A DNA stretch of 64,000 nt, from assembly GCF_024612015.1 (NCBI RefSeq), contig NZ_CP102512.1, forward strand, positions 868,001-932,000. The letters run 5' to 3'. The translations under genes were made by a program, and so were the position numbers. The DNA is from Streptomyces sp. CA-210063 (GTDB lineage Bacteria; Actinomycetota; Actinomycetes; Streptomycetales; Streptomycetaceae). A model generated the notes under the pieces. That model was not told where the DNA came from and searched no databases. It saw only the letters and a list, made by a program, of their open reading frames with translations. Below are positions 41,194-48,013 of this stretch, piece after piece; positions within the stretch are counted from its first letter, which is position 1, and every line of letters starts with the position of its first letter.

Positions 41194-43779
41194 TCAGCCG
41201 GTCACCGGCTGCAGTTTGGCGCGGAAGTGCCGAAGAATCGGGGACTGGTCCACGATTCTGTAGCCCCGGACGGATTCCGCGCCTTTGGCGATCCGTTCCA
41301 GGGTCCTGCCGACGTGGTCGTAGTGACTGCGGGTGTAGACCCGGCGCGGGAGCGCCAGCCTGACCAGTTCGTACGGCGCGCTCTTGGTGGGGTTGCCGTC
41401 CTCGTCCTCCTCGCCGAGGTAGAGGGAACCGAGTTCGGCCGAGCGGATGCCGCCTTCGAGGTAGAGGCGGCAGGCGAGGGCGTGGCCCGGGTAATGGTGG
41501 GGCGGTATGTGGGGAAGCAATCGTCCGGCGTTGAGGTACAAGGCATGCAGCCCCGGGGGTTCGAGGATGTCGACGCCCGCCGCGCGGACCCGGTCGGCGA
41601 GATGGGAGGCGACGTCGGCCCGCTCCGCGAGGTACGCGGGCTCGGTCACCTCCAGCAGGCCGGTGGCCATCATGTCGAGGTCGCGTCCCGCGAGACCGCC
41701 GTACGTGGCGAAGCCCTCGGTGGCGATGAGGAGCCGTTCGCACTTCTCGGCGAGTTCCGGGTCGTTGAGGCCGATGAAGCCGCCGATGTGGACGATGCCG
41801 TCCTTCTTGGCACTCATCACACAGCCGTCGGCCAGCCGGAACGCTTCCTCGGCGACCTGGCGCGGGGTACGGCCGCGGTATGCCTCCTCGTGGCGGGTCA
41901 CCAGCCAGGCGTTCTCGGCGAACCTGGCGGCGTCGAGGATCATCGGGACGCCGTGCCGGCGGCAGATCTCGGCGGTCTGCTTCAGGTTCTCCATGGAGAC
42001 CGGCTGGCCGCCGCCCCCGTTGTTGGTGATCGTCATGATCACCACGCGGACGCGGGAGCCGTCCGGACCCTCCAGCGTGCGCCGGAGTACGGCCAGGTCG
42101 ATGTTGCCCTTGAAGGGGTGGGCACTGTCGAGGTCGCGGGCCTCGGCGCACGGAATGTCATGCGCCTGACATCCAGCAAGTTGGACGTTGGCCCGGGTCG
42201 TGTCGAAGTGGGTGTTGGACAGGACGATGCCGCCGGGTTCGAGGAGCGTCGTGAAGAGGATGCGTTCCGCGGCGCGCCCCTGGTGGGCCGGCAGGATGTG
42301 TTTGTAGCCGGTCAGCTCCGTCACGGTCTCGTGGAAGCGATAGAAGGAGCGCGAACCCGCGTAGGACTCGTCGCCCTCCATGCCCGCCGCGAGTTGCGCG
42401 GCCGAGATGGCGCCGGTGCCCGAGTCGCTGAGCAGATCGATGGTCACCTCCTCGGCGCGCAGGTCGAAGAGGTTGTAGTGCACCCGCTCCAGCGCCGCTT
42501 CGCGCTGTTGCCGAGTGGTGAGCGCGATGGGCTCGACGACTTTGATGCGGTAGGGCTCCATGCCGGTCCTTGCTCCTGACGTGCTGCGGGTTGCCGCGTG
42601 GTTGATGTGTCGGCGACTGGGCTCATGCCGTCCGGATGACGGCGTGCCGTAGCCCGACGGCGGGGTGTTCGGCGGCCGGACCTCGTAGGCCTCCGATGAG
42701 AGGTACGTGGTCACCCGGGGTGGCTGATCCTGCTCATGGGCCAGCGCCACGTACGCGATGAGCCCGGCACCGTCCTGCGGCCGCCGCGGGGTGATGGCGC
42801 CCAGCGACCGGGCGAGCGCGCCGGTGTCCAGCCCGTGGCGACCGAGGACGGCCCCAGCCCGCTGGAGTGCCTCCGCGTCGTCCCGGACGTAGTCCCTGAT
42901 CGGGACATGCAGGGTGAAGCCGGTGGGGCCACCGGTCGTCCTCGTGAAGGAATGGCAGGTAAGGACGGGGCGCCTGTCGAACGTGGCCCTCAGGGCCGAC
43001 GGGTGTTGCGTTCCGTCGTCGAATCCGCCCGCCGTGCGGAGGAACTCCTCCAGCGTCTGGTTGTCGGGGCCGGATTCCATCCGGCACAGACCACCGGCGG
43101 CTGTGGTCGGCAGTCCGTGATGAGTGGCGTAGATCTTCACTCGGGGCGCCGCCCAGTCGCCCAGGTCGAGCGCGAAGAACGGGTAGCCGTCGGCCGGCGG
43201 CAGCGCGTCGAAGGCGTGCCGGTGGCCCAGCCGGTCCAGTGCTTCCCGTAACGTCTCGGCGGCCCGCGTCGCGCCGGCCGCCGCTGGGTTCAGGTAGACC
43301 TTGGCCTTGGGTACACCGCCGGGGCGCAGCTCCAGCGCGATCCACAGCGCCAGGGGGCCCTGAGGGTCCGTGGGTAAGAACAGGTCCTCCAGCACGTCGA
43401 GTTGATCGGTGGCGAAGGCCCAGCGCCGCGCCATCGACCGGACGACGCGCAGTCCGGCGCGGCCGTTGTCCCTCAGGCTGTCGGCATCGCATCCCGGTTC
43501 CAGCAGCACACGCACCGTCGGCGGCGCGTCCGGTGTGAAGGAGAGCGAGAACTCCACCGGCGTGGAGTCGTCGGACAGGAAAGTGCGGGAGGGGGGCGGC
43601 AGGTCCAGGGGCCGTTCGGCCACCGCTCCCAGCGAGTCGTTCAGTACGTGCGCGTATGTCTCGGCGTCGGATCGTCCGAGCCCCGACACCTGGCACAACC
43701 GCAGCAACTGGCCCGTCACGAGCCCGCCGAGCGTCCGGTCACTCCCGGTGCTCCCGGTGCCGGACCCGATGGCGCTCAC
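41194..43779 (-). CDS. Fused DMATS-type indole/tryptophan prenyltransferase - tryptophanase
   Basis: One uninterrupted 861-codon frame. Residues 1 to about 370 are an ABBA-fold aromatic prenyltransferase of the DMATS family (KAKVYLNPAAAGATRAAETL, PRVKIYATHHGLP, GFTLHVPIRDYVRDDAEAL, VTTYLSSEAYEV). Residues about 370-406 are a Ser/Arg/Pro-rich linker. Residues 407-861 are a full-length tryptophanase (HYNLFDLRAEEVTIDLLSDSGTGA, AGSRSFYRF, ITNNGGGGQPVSM, DAARFAENAW, PLP lysine in SAKKDG). The first half should attach a dimethylallyl group to tryptophan, the second release the indole with pyruvate and ammonia. Streptomyces with separate genes for these two steps are known. ATG 42561 (407) has AGGAG at long spacing, so separate internal translation is possible. 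GTG start at 43779 with GGGAG. Confidence 0.88.
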   Translation of the reverse strand: MSAIGSGTGSTGSDRTLGGLVTGQLLRLCQVSGLGRSDAETYAHVLNDSLGAVAERPLDLPPPSRTFLSDDSTPVEFSLSFTPDAPPTVRVLLEPGCDADSLRDNGRAGLRVVRSMARRWAFATDQLDVLEDLFLPTDPQGPLALWIALELRPGGVPKAKVYLNPAAAGATRAAETLREALDRLGHRHAFDALPPADGYPFFALDLGDWAAPRVKIYATHHGLPTTAAGGLCRMESGPDNQTLEEFLRTAGGFDDGTQHPSALRATFDRRPVLTCHSFTRTTGGPTGFTLHVPIRDYVRDDAEALQRAGAVLGRHGLDTGALARSLGAITPRRPQDGAGLIAYVALAHEQDQPPRVTTYLSSEAYEVRPPNTPPSGYGTPSSGRHEPSRRHINHAATRSTSGARTGMEPYRIKVVEPIALTTRQQREAALERVHYNLFDLRAEEVTIDLLSDSGTGAISAAQLAAGMEGDESYAGSRSFYRFHETVTELTGYKHILPAHQGRAAERILFTTLLEPGGIVLSNTHFDTTRANVQLAGCQAHDIPCAEARDLDSAHPFKGNIDLAVLRRTLEGPDGSRVRVVIMTITNNGGGGQPVSMENLKQTAEICRRHGVPMILDAARFAENAWLVTRHEEAYRGRTPRQVAEEAFRLADGCVMSAKKDGIVHIGGFIGLNDPELAEKCERLLIATEGFATYGGLAGRDLDMMATGLLEVTEPAYLAERADVASHLADRVRAAGVDILEPPGLHALYLNAGRLLPHIPPHHYPGHALACRLYLEGGIRSAELGSLYLGEEDEDGNPTKSAPYELVRLALPRRVYTRSHYDHVGRTLERIAKGAESVRGYRIVDQSPILRHFRAKLQPVTG

Positions 43780-44110: not shown

Positions 44111-45451
44111 TCACCCCTTCAACCAGGACAGGAAGGAGCCCCACACACCTCGCTCCGTTTTCCGGGCCGCCGGGGTGTTCTCGCCGAGTGCGGGCGCCTG
44201 CGTCGCTTGCGGGGGGTTGGGCCGCTCCACCACCTGCGGGGTGAAGCGGCAGGGCAGCGCGGCCAAGGCGCGGTGGAAGGGGCCCGGACGCCAGGTCAGG
44301 CTGTCCTCGGGCACCGCGAGTTCGATGTCGTGCAGCCGGTTGAGCAGGTTCTCGATGGCCACCATGGTGACGAGCCGCGCGAGTTCCTTCGAGGGGCAGG
44401 CGTGCGGGCCGGCGCTCCATGACAAGTGGGCTCGCCTGCCGCCGGTCTGGCGGGCGGCGGCGAGCGCCGGGTCGGTGTTGGCGGCCGTCATGCTGACGAG
44501 GACCAGATCGCCCGCCCGCAGCTTCGTCCCGCCGAACTCCATGTCGGCCGCGGGGTAGTGCGGCGCGTAGTTCGCCATGGGCGGGTTCTCCCACAGCGTG
44601 TCGTCGATGGCCTCCTCGATCAGGCCACCGTCGGCGTACCGGTCGTGGAGAAGCAACCGGTGCAACGTGTTGCCGATGAGGTTGCGCAGCGGTTCGGCGC
44701 CCGCGCCCAGGAGCAGGATCAACTGGTGGACCAGCTCTTCGTCGGTCAGCCGCGCCTGGTGTCGCATCAGGTACGAGGTGACGTCGTCGGCCGGCCTGGC
44801 CCGCTTGAGCGCCACCAGTTCGAACACGGCCTGCCCCAGCACTTCGTTCGCCTTCTCGGCGTTGACGCCTTCGAAGACTCCGGATATGCCGAAGACGACC
44901 CTGTCACCGATGTCCGCCGGGCAGCCGAAGAGCTCGTTGAACACGAGGAGCGGCAGCTGCTTGACGTAGTCGTTCATCAGGTCGACCGAACCGCGGGAGG
45001 CGACCTGGGCCATGAGGTAGTCGGAGGCCCGCTTGGTCATGTCGCTCAGTCGGCGGGAGTCCACCTTGGCGAGGCTGTCGGTGACCGCCTGACGCAGTCG
45101 CGCGTGCTCGGCGCCGTCGGTGAACATGCAGTTGGGCCGGTACCCCAGCATCGGCACGACCGGGCTGTCCGGGCCGACCTTGCCTTCGGCGACGTCTCGC
45201 CAACGGCGTGCGTCCTTGCGGAAGTTGCCGGGATCCTGGAGCAGTTTCAGCGCCGTCGCGTGGTCCGTGACGAGGGTCGCGTCCACGCCGGGAGCGATCT
45301 CGACCGGCGCGGTCGGCCCGTAGTGCCGCATGTGCGCGTAGTACGCCTGCGGATCCGCCGCGAAATCCGGCCCGTACAACGGAACGCGCTGTCCGCTGTC
45401 GTGGGCCGGGCAGCCGGGTGGCGGTGCGGGGAAGGTGGAATCGGAGGTCAT
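44111..45451 (-). CDS. Conservon-associated cytochrome P450 lacking ExxR
   Basis: 446 aa. Haem loop WSAGPHACPSKELARLV has the axial Cys. The I-helix reads LLGAGAEPLRNLIG, without the usual acid-Thr pair, and the K-helix reads DDTLWENPP where ExxR is expected. This matches the CYP156/CYP157 P450s of Streptomyces conservons, known to lack ExxR. A 45-residue Pro/Ala-rich C-terminal extension ends GVWGSFLSWLKG, possibly membrane-associating. ATG 45451, 13 bases after cvnD. Either an unusual oxidase acting on the neighbouring prenyl-indole product or a non-catalytic haem protein in the signalling complex. Confidence 0.92.
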   Translation of the reverse strand: MTSDSTFPAPPPGCPAHDSGQRVPLYGPDFAADPQAYYAHMRHYGPTAPVEIAPGVDATLVTDHATALKLLQDPGNFRKDARRWRDVAEGKVGPDSPVVPMLGYRPNCMFTDGAEHARLRQAVTDSLAKVDSRRLSDMTKRASDYLMAQVASRGSVDLMNDYVKQLPLLVFNELFGCPADIGDRVVFGISGVFEGVNAEKANEVLGQAVFELVALKRARPADDVTSYLMRHQARLTDEELVHQLILLLGAGAEPLRNLIGNTLHRLLLHDRYADGGLIEEAIDDTLWENPPMANYAPHYPAADMEFGGTKLRAGDLVLVSMTAANTDPALAAARQTGGRRAHLSWSAGPHACPSKELARLVTMVAIENLLNRLHDIELAVPEDSLTWRPGPFHRALAALPCRFTPQVVERPNPPQATQAPALGENTPAARKTERGVWGSFLSWLKG

Positions 45452-45464
45452 GTCTGCTCTGCTC

Positions 45465-46058
45465 CTAACGGGCGCGGTCCATCAAGTAGCGGACGAGCGT
45501 GATCAGTGCTTCGGCCGACGACCTCTCGTCCCGCGCGTCGCAGGTGACGATAGGGGTGTCGTCGAGCAGATCCAGCGCTTCGCGCAGCGCCCTTGCGTCA
45601 CGTATCGACGTACCGTCGAAATGGTTGACCGCGATCGCGTAGTCGAGTCCGTACTGCTCGATCAGGTCGATCACGGCGAATGAGTCGGCCAGCCTCTCGG
45701 GGTCGACCAGCACGAGCGCCCCGAGGGCGCCGCGGGCCATGTCCTCCCACATCTGCACGAAGCGAAGCTGGCCGGGGGTGCCGAAGAGATACAGCACGAC
45801 GCGGTCGCTGACGGTGAGACGGCCGAAGTCCATGGCGACCGTGGTGGTGGTCTTGCCCTGGACGCCCTTGAGGTCGTCGATCGCCTCGCCCGCCTGGGTC
45901 ATCGTCTCCTCGGTGGAGAGCGGCGAGATCTCGGAGATCGACCCGATGAACGTGGTCTTGCCCACCGCGAAGTGCCCGACGACCAGGATCTTCACGGCGG
46001 TCTGCGTCTCGCCGTCCGGGACGTACGCCCGCTCATCCAAACTTGGACTGGAGACCAT
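45465..46058 (-). CDS. cvnD: Conservon small GTPase (CvnD)
   Basis: 197 aa Ras-like ATP/GTP-binding protein: P-loop GHFAVGKTTF, switch residues around TTTTVAMDFGRL, G3 LFGTPGQLRF (with Thr-Pro-Gly in place of Ala-Gly), G4-like NHFDG. Fourth member of the CvnABCD membrane-proximal signalling complex. ATG at 46058, preceded by GAGGAGG, lies 26 bases inside the end of cvnC. Confidence 0.95.
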   Translation of the reverse strand: MVSSPSLDERAYVPDGETQTAVKILVVGHFAVGKTTFIGSISEISPLSTEETMTQAGEAIDDLKGVQGKTTTTVAMDFGRLTVSDRVVLYLFGTPGQLRFVQMWEDMARGALGALVLVDPERLADSFAVIDLIEQYGLDYAIAVNHFDGTSIRDARALREALDLLDDTPIVTCDARDERSSAEALITLVRYLMDRAR

Positions 46059-46410
46059 TGAGCACCTCCTCGAGAATCTGCAGGTTGGCGACGGGAGCAC
46101 GCGGAACCGGCGGGCGGGTGACGAGGTAGCCGGCCTCGGACAGCGCGGCCAGCAGGATTTTCACCACCCCCACCGGCAATTGGGTGTGCCCCGCGATCTC
46201 GGCGACGGAGAGGTAACCGCCGACACACATACTCAGCAGGTCCTGCTCCTCGGGCGAGAGGCGCGCCGGCCGCTGCTGCTGGTCGGCGACCGCCGTGACC
46301 AGTGTGATCAGGGAAAACTGGCTCTCACCGGGAAGACTGCGGCCACCGGTGATGACATACGGCCGTACTAACTCGGCAGCCTCGGGCTCCTGCTTGTCGG
46401 AATCGGTCAT
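46033..46410 (-). CDS. cvnC: Conservon DUF742 winged-helix protein (CvnC)
   Basis: 125 aa DUF742 domain: LVRPYVITGGRSLP at the start, LSVAEIAGHTQLPVGVVKILLAALSEAGYLVTR forms a winged-helix-like core. Binds partners in the conservon complex in family studies. ATG at 46410 overlaps the cvnB stop by four bases; its 3' end overlaps cvnD. Confidence 0.95.
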   Translation of the reverse strand: MTDSDKQEPEAAELVRPYVITGGRSLPGESQFSLITLVTAVADQQQRPARLSPEEQDLLSMCVGGYLSVAEIAGHTQLPVGVVKILLAALSEAGYLVTRPPVPRAPVANLQILEEVLNGLQSKFG

Positions 46411-46808
46411 GGCCGTATCACGCTGCTCTCCCGGGGTGGAGCGGTCATGACCTTGCCCAACTGGCCGACGAGTTGCTGCATGCGGAAGGTGATGTCCGCC
46501 ATGTCGATGTCGGAGGAGGCCGACACGGCGAGGTAGGCACCGTCACCGGCCGAGATCAGGAAGATCCAGCCGCCGTCGAACTCGACGAGTGTCTGCTGCC
46601 ACCGCAGATCCGACCGGGAGCAGAAGAACGCCAGCGATCGGCTGAGCGACTGCATGCCGCTCATCGCGGCGGCTGCCTTGTCGGCGTCGTCCTTGTCCAC
46701 TCCCTTCGAACGGGCCCTCAGCAACCCGTCGGAGGAGACCAGAACCGCGTGGAGAGCTCCGGGGATCTCCAAGGCGCTGTCAAGCATCCAAGAAAGATCG
46801 TTGTTCAT
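46407..46808 (-). CDS. cvnB: Conservon Roadblock/LC7 protein (CvnB)
   Basis: 133 aa Roadblock/LC7 fold: SWMLDSALEIPGALHAVLVSSDGLLRARSKGVDKDDADKAAAAMSGM, FLISAGDGAYLAVSASSDIDMADITFRM. In this family such proteins form dimers that regulate the partner GTPase (MglB-like). Its start overlaps the cvnA stop (ATGA). Confidence 0.95.
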   Translation of the reverse strand: MNNDLSWMLDSALEIPGALHAVLVSSDGLLRARSKGVDKDDADKAAAAMSGMQSLSRSLAFFCSRSDLRWQQTLVEFDGGWIFLISAGDGAYLAVSASSDIDMADITFRMQQLVGQLGKVMTAPPRESSVIRP

Positions 46809-48013
46809 TCGGCCTCGTGCCCTTCGCTGCTTGCGTCACGGGTGCTGCTCGGACGCTCACCCGCCTGCGGATGTGTGGCGCGGCCCGCGTCCGTGCCCTG
46901 CTTGAAGGCGGCCATGATCGCTGCCGTGTCCTCACTGCGGCGCCTCGTGGCCGGTGAGGCGGGCGAGTCGGTCGAGACCAGGGCCATCGGCCGCTTGCGC
47001 CGCCGCTTGGGCAGGCCGTCCTCGGTCGTGGCGATGGGCAGCGAGGGCTCGGGGTCGGTCTCGTACACCGAGGGACGTTCCTCGGCGGGCGGCGGCGGCA
47101 CCTCTTTCGGCGCCACCGAGTCCACCGGCACCGTCGGCTGCCTCGGCTCCGGCATGCTGGTCAGCAGCTCGTCGGGCAGCAGCACGACCGCCCGCACACC
47201 TCCGTAGGGGGAGGTGGAGTCCACCGACACCGTGAAGCCGAAGCGCTCGCAGAGGACACCGATCACCGCGAAGCCGAACTGCGGAGGGTTGCCCAGCCCC
47301 GAGACGCCCGTGACCCGCTCGCTCGTCAGGAGCCTCTCGGCCCTGGCCTTCTCTTCCTCGTTCATACCGACACCGGCGTCATCGACGACGATGCAGACAC
47401 CCTTGGGCACGGAGCGGACGTTGATCTCCACCACGGTGTCCGGGCTGGAGTAACTGGTCGCGTTGTCGAGCAACTCGGCGAGCGCCAGCGCCACCGGTTC
47501 GACGGCCCGGCTGGTGATACCGAAGTCGACCTTCGACAGGATCTGCGCCCGCTGGAAATGCCGGATCCTGCCCTGGGCACTGCGGACCACGTCGTACACC
47601 GAGGCCGTGTCGCGGTGCCGGCCGAGCCAGCCCTCGCACAACACGGCGATGGACTGGGCACGTCGACCGAACTGCGCGTTCATGTGGTCGATCTCCAGGA
47701 GGTCCTGGAGCATGACGGAGTCGCCGTACTTCCGCTGCAGCCCGGAAATGATGCGCTGCTGCTCGGCGGCGAGACCCTGCAGTGTCCGCATGGCGGACTT
47801 CAGGGCCGTCCTCGTTTCTCCCTCGGCTTCCTGTTGGGCCGCACGGACGGACTCCGAGTATTGGCTCTCCAACTCACCGTAGTGCTTTCTGAGCCCTGCG
47901 ATCTCCTGTCGTAATGTCCGCGCCGCCCGTCGCTGACGAACAATCAGGGCGACGGCGGCAAGGGTCACGACAACGAGTGCCCAGAGTGCCGGATTTTGTA
48001 TGTATTGCGTCAT
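46805..48013 (-). CDS. cvnA: Conservon sensor histidine-kinase-like ATPase (CvnA)
   Basis: 402 aa. One N-terminal membrane helix (ALWALVVVTLAAVALIV), a coiled coil (residues about 30-75, QEIAGLRKHYGELESQYSESVRAAQQEAEGE), then a helical dimerisation region and an HATPase_c domain (ALAELLDNATSYSSPDTVVEI, VDDAGVGMNEEEKARAE, GFAVIGVLCERFG). No long extracellular sensor. The last 120 residues are a disordered Pro/Glu/Arg-rich tail. ATG at 48013 with AAGAAGG. First gene of cvnABCD-P450. Confidence 0.94.
   Translation of the reverse strand: MTQYIQNPALWALVVVTLAAVALIVRQRRAARTLRQEIAGLRKHYGELESQYSESVRAAQQEAEGETRTALKSAMRTLQGLAAEQQRIISGLQRKYGDSVMLQDLLEIDHMNAQFGRRAQSIAVLCEGWLGRHRDTASVYDVVRSAQGRIRHFQRAQILSKVDFGITSRAVEPVALALAELLDNATSYSSPDTVVEINVRSVPKGVCIVVDDAGVGMNEEEKARAERLLTSERVTGVSGLGNPPQFGFAVIGVLCERFGFTVSVDSTSPYGGVRAVVLLPDELLTSMPEPRQPTVPVDSVAPKEVPPPPAEERPSVYETDPEPSLPIATTEDGLPKRRRKRPMALVSTDSPASPATRRRSEDTAAIMAAFKQGTDAGRATHPQAGERPSSTRDASSEGHEAE

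Follow-up and report, generated by a model that had tools for sequence, protein, structure and literature searches.

An indole prenyltransferase and a tryptophanase joined in one reading frame in Streptomyces sp. CA-210063, with a putative internal start retained

A stop-free frame that runs through two enzymes raises the question of what is made from it: one bifunctional protein, a fusion together with one of its halves, or two separate proteins disguised by an error. The locus considered here lies in Streptomyces sp. CA-210063 (GCF_024612015.1, NZ_CP102512.1 positions 868,001–932,000), and the whole stretch of 64,000 nt is referred to as the window. An earlier note on this DNA had claimed a stop-free frame of 861 codons at 41194–43779 and left the strand unstated. 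The frame is present on the minus strand (43779 to 41194), these bases contain stops when read on the plus strand, and every motif that had been quoted for the prenyltransferase and the tryptophanase was found in it. The gene and its parts are as follows.

41194–43779, minus strand: fused gene for a DMATS-type indole prenyltransferase, a linker and a tryptophanase (861 aa, GTG start, TGA stop, both Pfam domains)
42670–43779, minus strand: prenyltransferase (DMATS/ABBA) domain, residues 1–370 (PF11991; PriB 5inj, E 1.8e-138; Foldseek 5k9m, TMt 0.97)
42562–42669, minus strand: 36-codon linker, residues 371–406 (predicted disordered; no third-position excess of changes)
42573–42577, minus strand: AGGAG, putative retained Shine–Dalgarno of the tryptophanase, 11 nt before the ATG (a second, AAGG, at 42568–42571)
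42559–42561, minus strand: internal ATG, codon 407, at the same place as the tryptophanase start in split relatives
41194–42561, minus strand: tryptophanase domain, 455 aa (PF01212; 8sij, E 1.2e-127; PLP lysine K659 and Trp-type D526 and H851 in fusion numbering)

Domains of the fused protein

The 861-aa product matched the Pfam models PF11991 (Trp_DMAT; residues 42–318, 36.9 bits against a cut-off of 25) and PF01212 (Beta_elim_lyase; residues 448–823, 227.8 bits against a cut-off of 27). Both halves had been described as complete, which is borne out by these domains together with full-length similarity to solved members, and the linker of 36 residues that had been proposed between them occupies residues 371–406. 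By calculation, the fusion has a mass of 93.1 kDa and its tryptophanase half one of 49.9 kDa. An AlphaFold2 model of the fusion, built from 25 fused sequences, consists of two domains and a linker (mean pLDDT 76.5), with pLDDT below 50 at residues 368–419 and several low stretches also in the tryptophanase half; at a pTM of 0.49, the modelled placement of the domains relative to each other is unsure. When the model was searched with Foldseek, PriB was ranked first (5k9m), followed by 5-DMATS, IptA, and tryptophanases and TPLs.

The window prenyltransferase is 58–63% identical over the domain to the solved PriB, 5-DMATS and IptA; the match to PriB (5inj) covered residues 27–393, and 6zs0/6zrz and 7w8u also matched lengthwise. 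By this full-length similarity and by its predicted fold, it would be placed with the bacterial PriB/IptA kind. On the NCBI model TIGR03429, for which there was no PriB reference score, it scored 136.3 against a cut-off of 163.85. Residues E76, R90, K160, Y162, R213, K215, Y217, R295, Y297 and Y359 are invariant among 25 aligned fused proteins, and we take them to have the indole- and diphosphate-binding roles carried over from fungal DMATS. The predicted prenylation site is left as C-5 or C-6, since identity is similar to C-5 and C-6 enzymes alike.

In the tryptophanase half, alignment to Proteus vulgaris 1ax4 equates K659 with K266 (Lys-266), D526 with Asp-133 and H851 with His-458. Where the window protein has D526 and H851, tyrosine phenol-lyase 9j3u carries T and F, and on the strength of this Trp-type pair tryptophan, not tyrosine, is the predicted substrate type. 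K659, D616, R619 (presumably catalytic), D526, H851, R502 and Y473 are all invariant in 25 of the 28 fused proteins listed below (P0001 standing for the window's own P0002, and P0007, P0008 and P0031 being excluded). For the catalytic residues of TIL other than R619, the roles are those given in the pertinent portion of PMC11301627. The domain passed the NCBIfam subfamily model PRK13238 (613.3 against a cut-off of 285) and fell below the cut-offs of both TnaA equivalog models (TIGR02617, 442.3 against 825.8; NF053783, 475.1 against 750). These scores point to a divergent branch, so the protein is named a tryptophanase by subfamily and residues and not a TnaA equivalog, and its preferred substrate is predicted from the two residues D526 and H851.

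Fused and split forms among relatives

A protein search with the whole fusion, in which 7991 candidates were scored, found both Pfam domains in 28 of the best 120 of 2580 matches, one of the 28 being the window's own protein. The earlier note had called for a search for both domain families in one chain, and this one returned 27 further protein clusters among those best 120. P0003–P0022 are 68–90% identical to the fusion, and most carry a Streptomyces name (scabiei, europaeiscabiei, bottropensis, griseiscabiei and others); P0023–P0028 and P0031 are 48–54% identical, with Micromonospora sp. HM5-17 as the source of P0025. The record of P0008 is partial. P0031, known from one contig of 3,202 bases, is missing part of the tryptophanase N terminus and appears decayed. 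Many fused proteins are thus already in databases, mostly under the name 'tryptophanase' (P0018, P0024 and P0025 also or only as 'DMATS type aromatic prenyltransferase'), so that half of the protein is easily overlooked. The statement that no fusion of this kind had been described agrees with the literature searched, in that no description was found among the open-licence PubMed Central papers listed, as judged by titles and the beginnings of abstracts. Two other long chains, P0039 (927 aa) and P0103 (893 aa), each contain two matched tryptophanase/tyrosine-phenol-lyase stretches; neither has a prenyltransferase match, which rules them out as further prenyltransferase fusions.

Each locus was then classed by what separates its two halves: whether the tryptophanase follows the prenyltransferase in the same frame, and whether a stop lies between them. 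Among 392 Streptomyces genomes, 63 had a match, and of the 30 loci read from this set 28 had both halves: 6 fused, 4 in the same frame with a stop and 18 in another frame. A second set of 27 loci contained 11 fused, 9 same-frame pairs with a stop, 6 in another frame and 1 without a pair; a third set of 12 loci, for which some genomes were repeated from the earlier sets, contained 4, 5 and 3, respectively. Outside Streptomycetaceae, one of 20 pairs was fused in family f39 (19 new loci and L072; 42 of 250 genomes matched) and none of 18 pairs from L100–L118, nor L071, in family f48 (67 of 150 genomes matched), and in family f21 (22 genomes) the one match was to a tryptophanase half only. A further table of 394 genomes held a full match without a stop in two (G000 and G476); the loci from that search (L119–L144) stand outside the sorting and the trees. 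Most of the pairs read are two adjacent genes. Fused and same-frame pairs make up 10 of the 28 in the 392-genome survey, near the third that chance alone would give. 'Pre-fused' pairs are thus not overrepresented, and fusion may often amount to no more than the loss of a stop. In two plasmid-borne relatives, the annotation has the prenyltransferase and the tryptophanase as separate genes; in one of them, pSALBX2 of Streptomyces sp. CL7 (L164, 7929–10580), these genes have a polyketide synthase, P450s and methyltransferases nearby, and the 18.5 kb shown contain no conservon.

Independent confirmation of the frame through the linker, for which the earlier note had also asked, came from other genomes, as the frame is open in the DNA of relatives that include Streptomyces europaeiscabiei, Streptomyces stelliscabiei, Streptomyces caniscabiei and Streptomyces scabiei 87.22 (L032, L033, L034 and L044). 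A sequencing or assembly error or a pseudogene, behind which two separate proteins are really made, would fit with the small changes by which fused and split forms differ and with the majority of split pairs among the 392 genomes. The same fusion, however, recurs across many independent genomes and in protein clusters of several origins, and this, together with the invariant catalytic residues, in effect refutes the explanation, as do the first 60 tryptophanase codons, whose differences of 0.019, 0.004 and 0.155 at codon positions 1, 2 and 3 are those of strong purifying selection; the chance left to it is negligible.

Trees were built with LG+G4 without a mixture model. On the main tree, which is centred on Streptomyces and has 67 rows of the two domains with the linker left out, the state switches between fused and split 7 times, 6 of these changes being forced by well-supported branches (bootstrap range 7–8), and 6 changes are counted on the 53 DNA-backed rows. 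A wider quick tree of 82 rows has 11 changes, 9 of them forced. A tree of f39/f48 relatives (44 rows, 5 fused), in which the outgroup did not hold together, has 3, all forced, with DNA for L145 only among its five fused rows. Protein records without DNA underlie 23 of the 39 fused rows in the 82-row tree and 14 of 30 in the 67-row tree. The main tree omits 15 of the 82 rows (P0008, P0022–P0028, P0031, L048, L057, L058, L062, L071 and L072), and the sequence set from which the trees were drawn omits 11 repeat loci (L001, L002, L034, L044, L050, L059, L060, L066 and L068–L070), the window's P0001 and P0002, four proteins with a tryptophanase identical to that of a locus (P0006, P0014, P0015 and P0020) and loci without both halves (none of L073–L099 had both). 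The fused state thus looks recurrent, and a single origin is not favoured by the trees. Tree changes cannot separate gain from loss, and some of those counted may be re-splitting.

Particular branches suggest how such changes could arise. In L023, L024, L025 and L027, the prenyltransferase frame runs 28 nt past the tryptophanase start in another frame, so that translation of the two might be coupled. Their sister L009 carries 7 extra bases that resemble a small tandem duplication and put both halves in one frame, which makes it, as read from the DNA, the cleanest single fusion event. L006-like genes keep a TGA and L038 a TAA, and L036, L046 and the window group are without the stop owing to different sequence changes, which hints at separate fusions or re-splitting. 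In the window's own clade, all nine distinct genomes with DNA are fused, and the next branch, L038, is split.

The linker, the internal start and a lineage without one

The linker was compared among the nine distinct genomes of the window's fused clade, picked from the tree, with a 15-nt insert in L032 removed and a deletion in L005/L035 treated as gaps. About 104 parsimony changes fall on its 36 codons (39, 35 and 30 by codon position); a protein-conserved linker is ruled out by the absence of the third-position excess that is present in the flanking domains. The G+C content by codon position (0.57, 0.78 and 0.76 for residues 370–406) is also less coding-like than that of either domain. Two indels occurred, +15 (L032) and a shared −48 (L005/L035), both multiples of three, and the linker is stop-free in all nine genomes. 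Neutral simulation gives the same outcome in 5–8% of cases; with a P of only 0.05–0.08, a strong claim that selection holds the frame open was dropped, and the open frame and frame-keeping indels are suggestive of such selection, no more.

A different pattern is seen just ahead of the tryptophanase. In the same nine genomes, the Shine–Dalgarno stretch TCAGGAGCA has 0 changes in 9 sites, compared with 1.13 per neighbouring site. A Poisson test, which is rough with so few genomes, puts P at about 4e-5. The codons of this stretch are little used in the genes of the window (TCA, 8 of 183; GGA, 22 of 273; GCA, 22 of 364). Among 23 fused loci there are 15 distinct upstream sequences, and each of the 15 has an ATG or GTG at the inner start. 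An AGGAG, GGAG or AAGG/AGGA motif lies 5–11 nt before it in 14 of the 15, the weak exception being L007/L050, in which the Shine–Dalgarno is weakened. The DNA is conserved here as a ribosome-binding site would be, which argues that free tryptophanase is probably made too, and the window locus would then yield a 93-kDa fusion and a free 50-kDa tryptophanase. That the internal ATG might allow the second half to be made alone had been mentioned as an aside; with the Shine–Dalgarno conserved, it carries more weight than was thought.

The frozen Shine–Dalgarno within a freely changing linker, the near-universal motif at 5–11 nt and the near-chance share of same-frame pairs would also be expected if the stop had been lost incidentally, so that the fusion is a tolerated read-on with no function as such and the working tryptophanase comes from the internal start. 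We consider this explanation rather unlikely, because the window's own clade is fused throughout despite the many linker changes and the two indels, both of which kept the frame, and because of one lineage outside Streptomyces, L145, in which the fused form is the only one.

The L145 protein is fused and 100% identical to P0025 of HM5-17. Its DNA has no in-frame ATG, GTG or TTG from codon −52 to +74 around LPPYRIK, the nearest in-frame GTG being at −53, within the prenyltransferase, and no Shine–Dalgarno-like motif accompanies the CTG codons at −2, 0 and +42. At this place, most of the split relatives examined from its family have an ATG, GTG or TTG preceded by a GGAG-like motif. Compared with four split relatives, the L145 tryptophanase differs by 0.075–0.093, 0.053–0.067 and 0.304–0.339 at codon positions 1, 2 and 3. 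It thus appears to be under purifying selection yet could be made only as a fusion, so the fusion itself would have to work there. This one genome offers the best comparative evidence for a working fused form.

L145 is also, as to its start codon, a case of an obligate bifunctional enzyme, in which all tryptophanase is made as fusion with no use of the internal ATG, and prenyltryptophan is passed on faster through tethering (channelling), and the apparently repeated fusion of two consecutive steps would suit such an enzyme. The window's clade has instead kept the Shine–Dalgarno and start against a fast-changing background, and neither the predicted disorder of the linker nor the unsure overall placement in the model (pTM 0.49) favours it. 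We regard an obligate enzyme as distinctly improbable. The direct channelling that the earlier note proposed for the window fusion is no more than a possibility, with a linker that is predicted to be disordered and whose amino acids are not conserved.

Gene neighbourhood, proposed function and comparison with known systems

Five genes upstream of the fused gene bear on its pathway.

44111–45451, minus strand: cytochrome P450, CYP157-like, upstream in the cluster (K-helix DDTLW, no EXXR)
45465–46100, minus strand: CvnD-type small GTPase of a conservon
46033–46410, minus strand: CvnC-type DUF742 protein (gene order of the annotated similar record L165)
46407–46808, minus strand: CvnB-type roadblock protein (gene order of L165)
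46805–48013, minus strand: CvnA-type sensor-kinase-like protein (gene order of L165)

The P450 keeps the cysteine region WSAGPHACPS, and the replacement of EXXR in its K-helix is a departure described for conservon-linked CYP157 in the relevant part of PMC3599690. All 11 fused loci with flanking sequence have the P450 and the four conservon genes (CvnA–CvnD) upstream, as do many split loci; L053, L054, L055 and L058 have none of the five neighbours, L057 is without a CvnD match, and the sequences of L037 and L048 end too soon to show them. The Type A indole-prenyltransferase cluster, that of IptA in Streptomyces sp. SN-593, comprises a prenyltransferase, a tryptophanase and a four-gene conservon, with a P450 in some cases (Ozaki et al. 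2013, PMC3617294, in the sections describing these clusters). By gene content, the window locus would be such a Type A prenylindole cluster. The earlier note had held that Streptomyces use the two activities in sequence as separate proteins, and this accords with the split relatives and with those sections of PMC3617294.

As a whole, the explanation that we judge reasonably probable is a Type A cluster with a bifunctional fusion, an inner start that also yields free tryptophanase, and co-assembly of the two products; the bifunctional-enzyme reading is likely on the sequence evidence. That almost half of the main tree's fused rows are protein records alone lowers our confidence slightly. With no stop of its own, the prenyltransferase gene would give full-length prenyltransferase that always carries a C-terminal tryptophanase. 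The N-terminal domain is predicted to transfer a dimethylallyl group to C-5 or C-6 of the tryptophan indole ring, and the C-terminal PLP domain would convert the prenylated product to prenylindole, pyruvate and ammonia. From the old tryptophanase start and Shine–Dalgarno inside the gene, free tryptophanase would probably be produced as well. Tryptophanases act as oligomers (tetramers), for which reason fusion and free subunits would probably co-assemble, as a tryptophanase core with prenyltransferase arms on flexible tethers. A bolder version, which we put forward tentatively and lean against, is that the nested gene sets the proportion of fusion to free tryptophanase, such that a mixed core with few tethered prenyltransferases forms a self-assembling two-step complex that evolved repeatedly and became an obligate fusion in one lineage.

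The preferred reading would make the locus a variant of the known prenylindole pathway with two steps in one chain, and the fused proteins ready-made candidates for bifunctional prenylindole catalysts. The relatives also form a natural series, from halves in another frame, to the same frame with one stop, to fused with an inner start and finally fused without one, in which two adjacent genes can be seen becoming one enzyme. This series offers a test case for whether tethering successive enzymes improves flux or merely follows stop loss.

Among known systems, the Type A cluster matches the window in gene content (44111–48013 on the minus strand together with the fused gene); the relevant passages of PMC3617294 mention one gene for the prenyltransferase and another for the tryptophanase and contain no word starting with 'fus', whereas the window has one frame. 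Among the nearest non-fused relatives, the split pairs L006, L037, L038, L041, L045, L048 and L062 share the frame and a similar Shine–Dalgarno with the window gene, but in them the prenyltransferase is ended by a stop (TGA; TAA in L038) 30 nt ahead of the tryptophanase GTG, which the window gene does not have; in L039, the distance is 39 nt, not 30. PriB (5inj, 5k9m, 5jxm), IptA (7w8u–7w8y) and the 5-DMATS of Streptomyces coelicolor (6zrz, 6zs0) have the same fold as that predicted for the window domain and are stand-alone enzymes, whereas the window prenyltransferase is fused to a tryptophanase. The solved tryptophanases of P. vulgaris (1ax4), Fusobacterium varium (8sij) and B. theta (8sbg) are about 40–43% identical to the window protein and have in common with it the PLP lysine and the equivalents of Asp-133 and His-458; the window protein differs from them in scoring under the TnaA equivalog cut-offs and in bearing a prenyltransferase at its N terminus.
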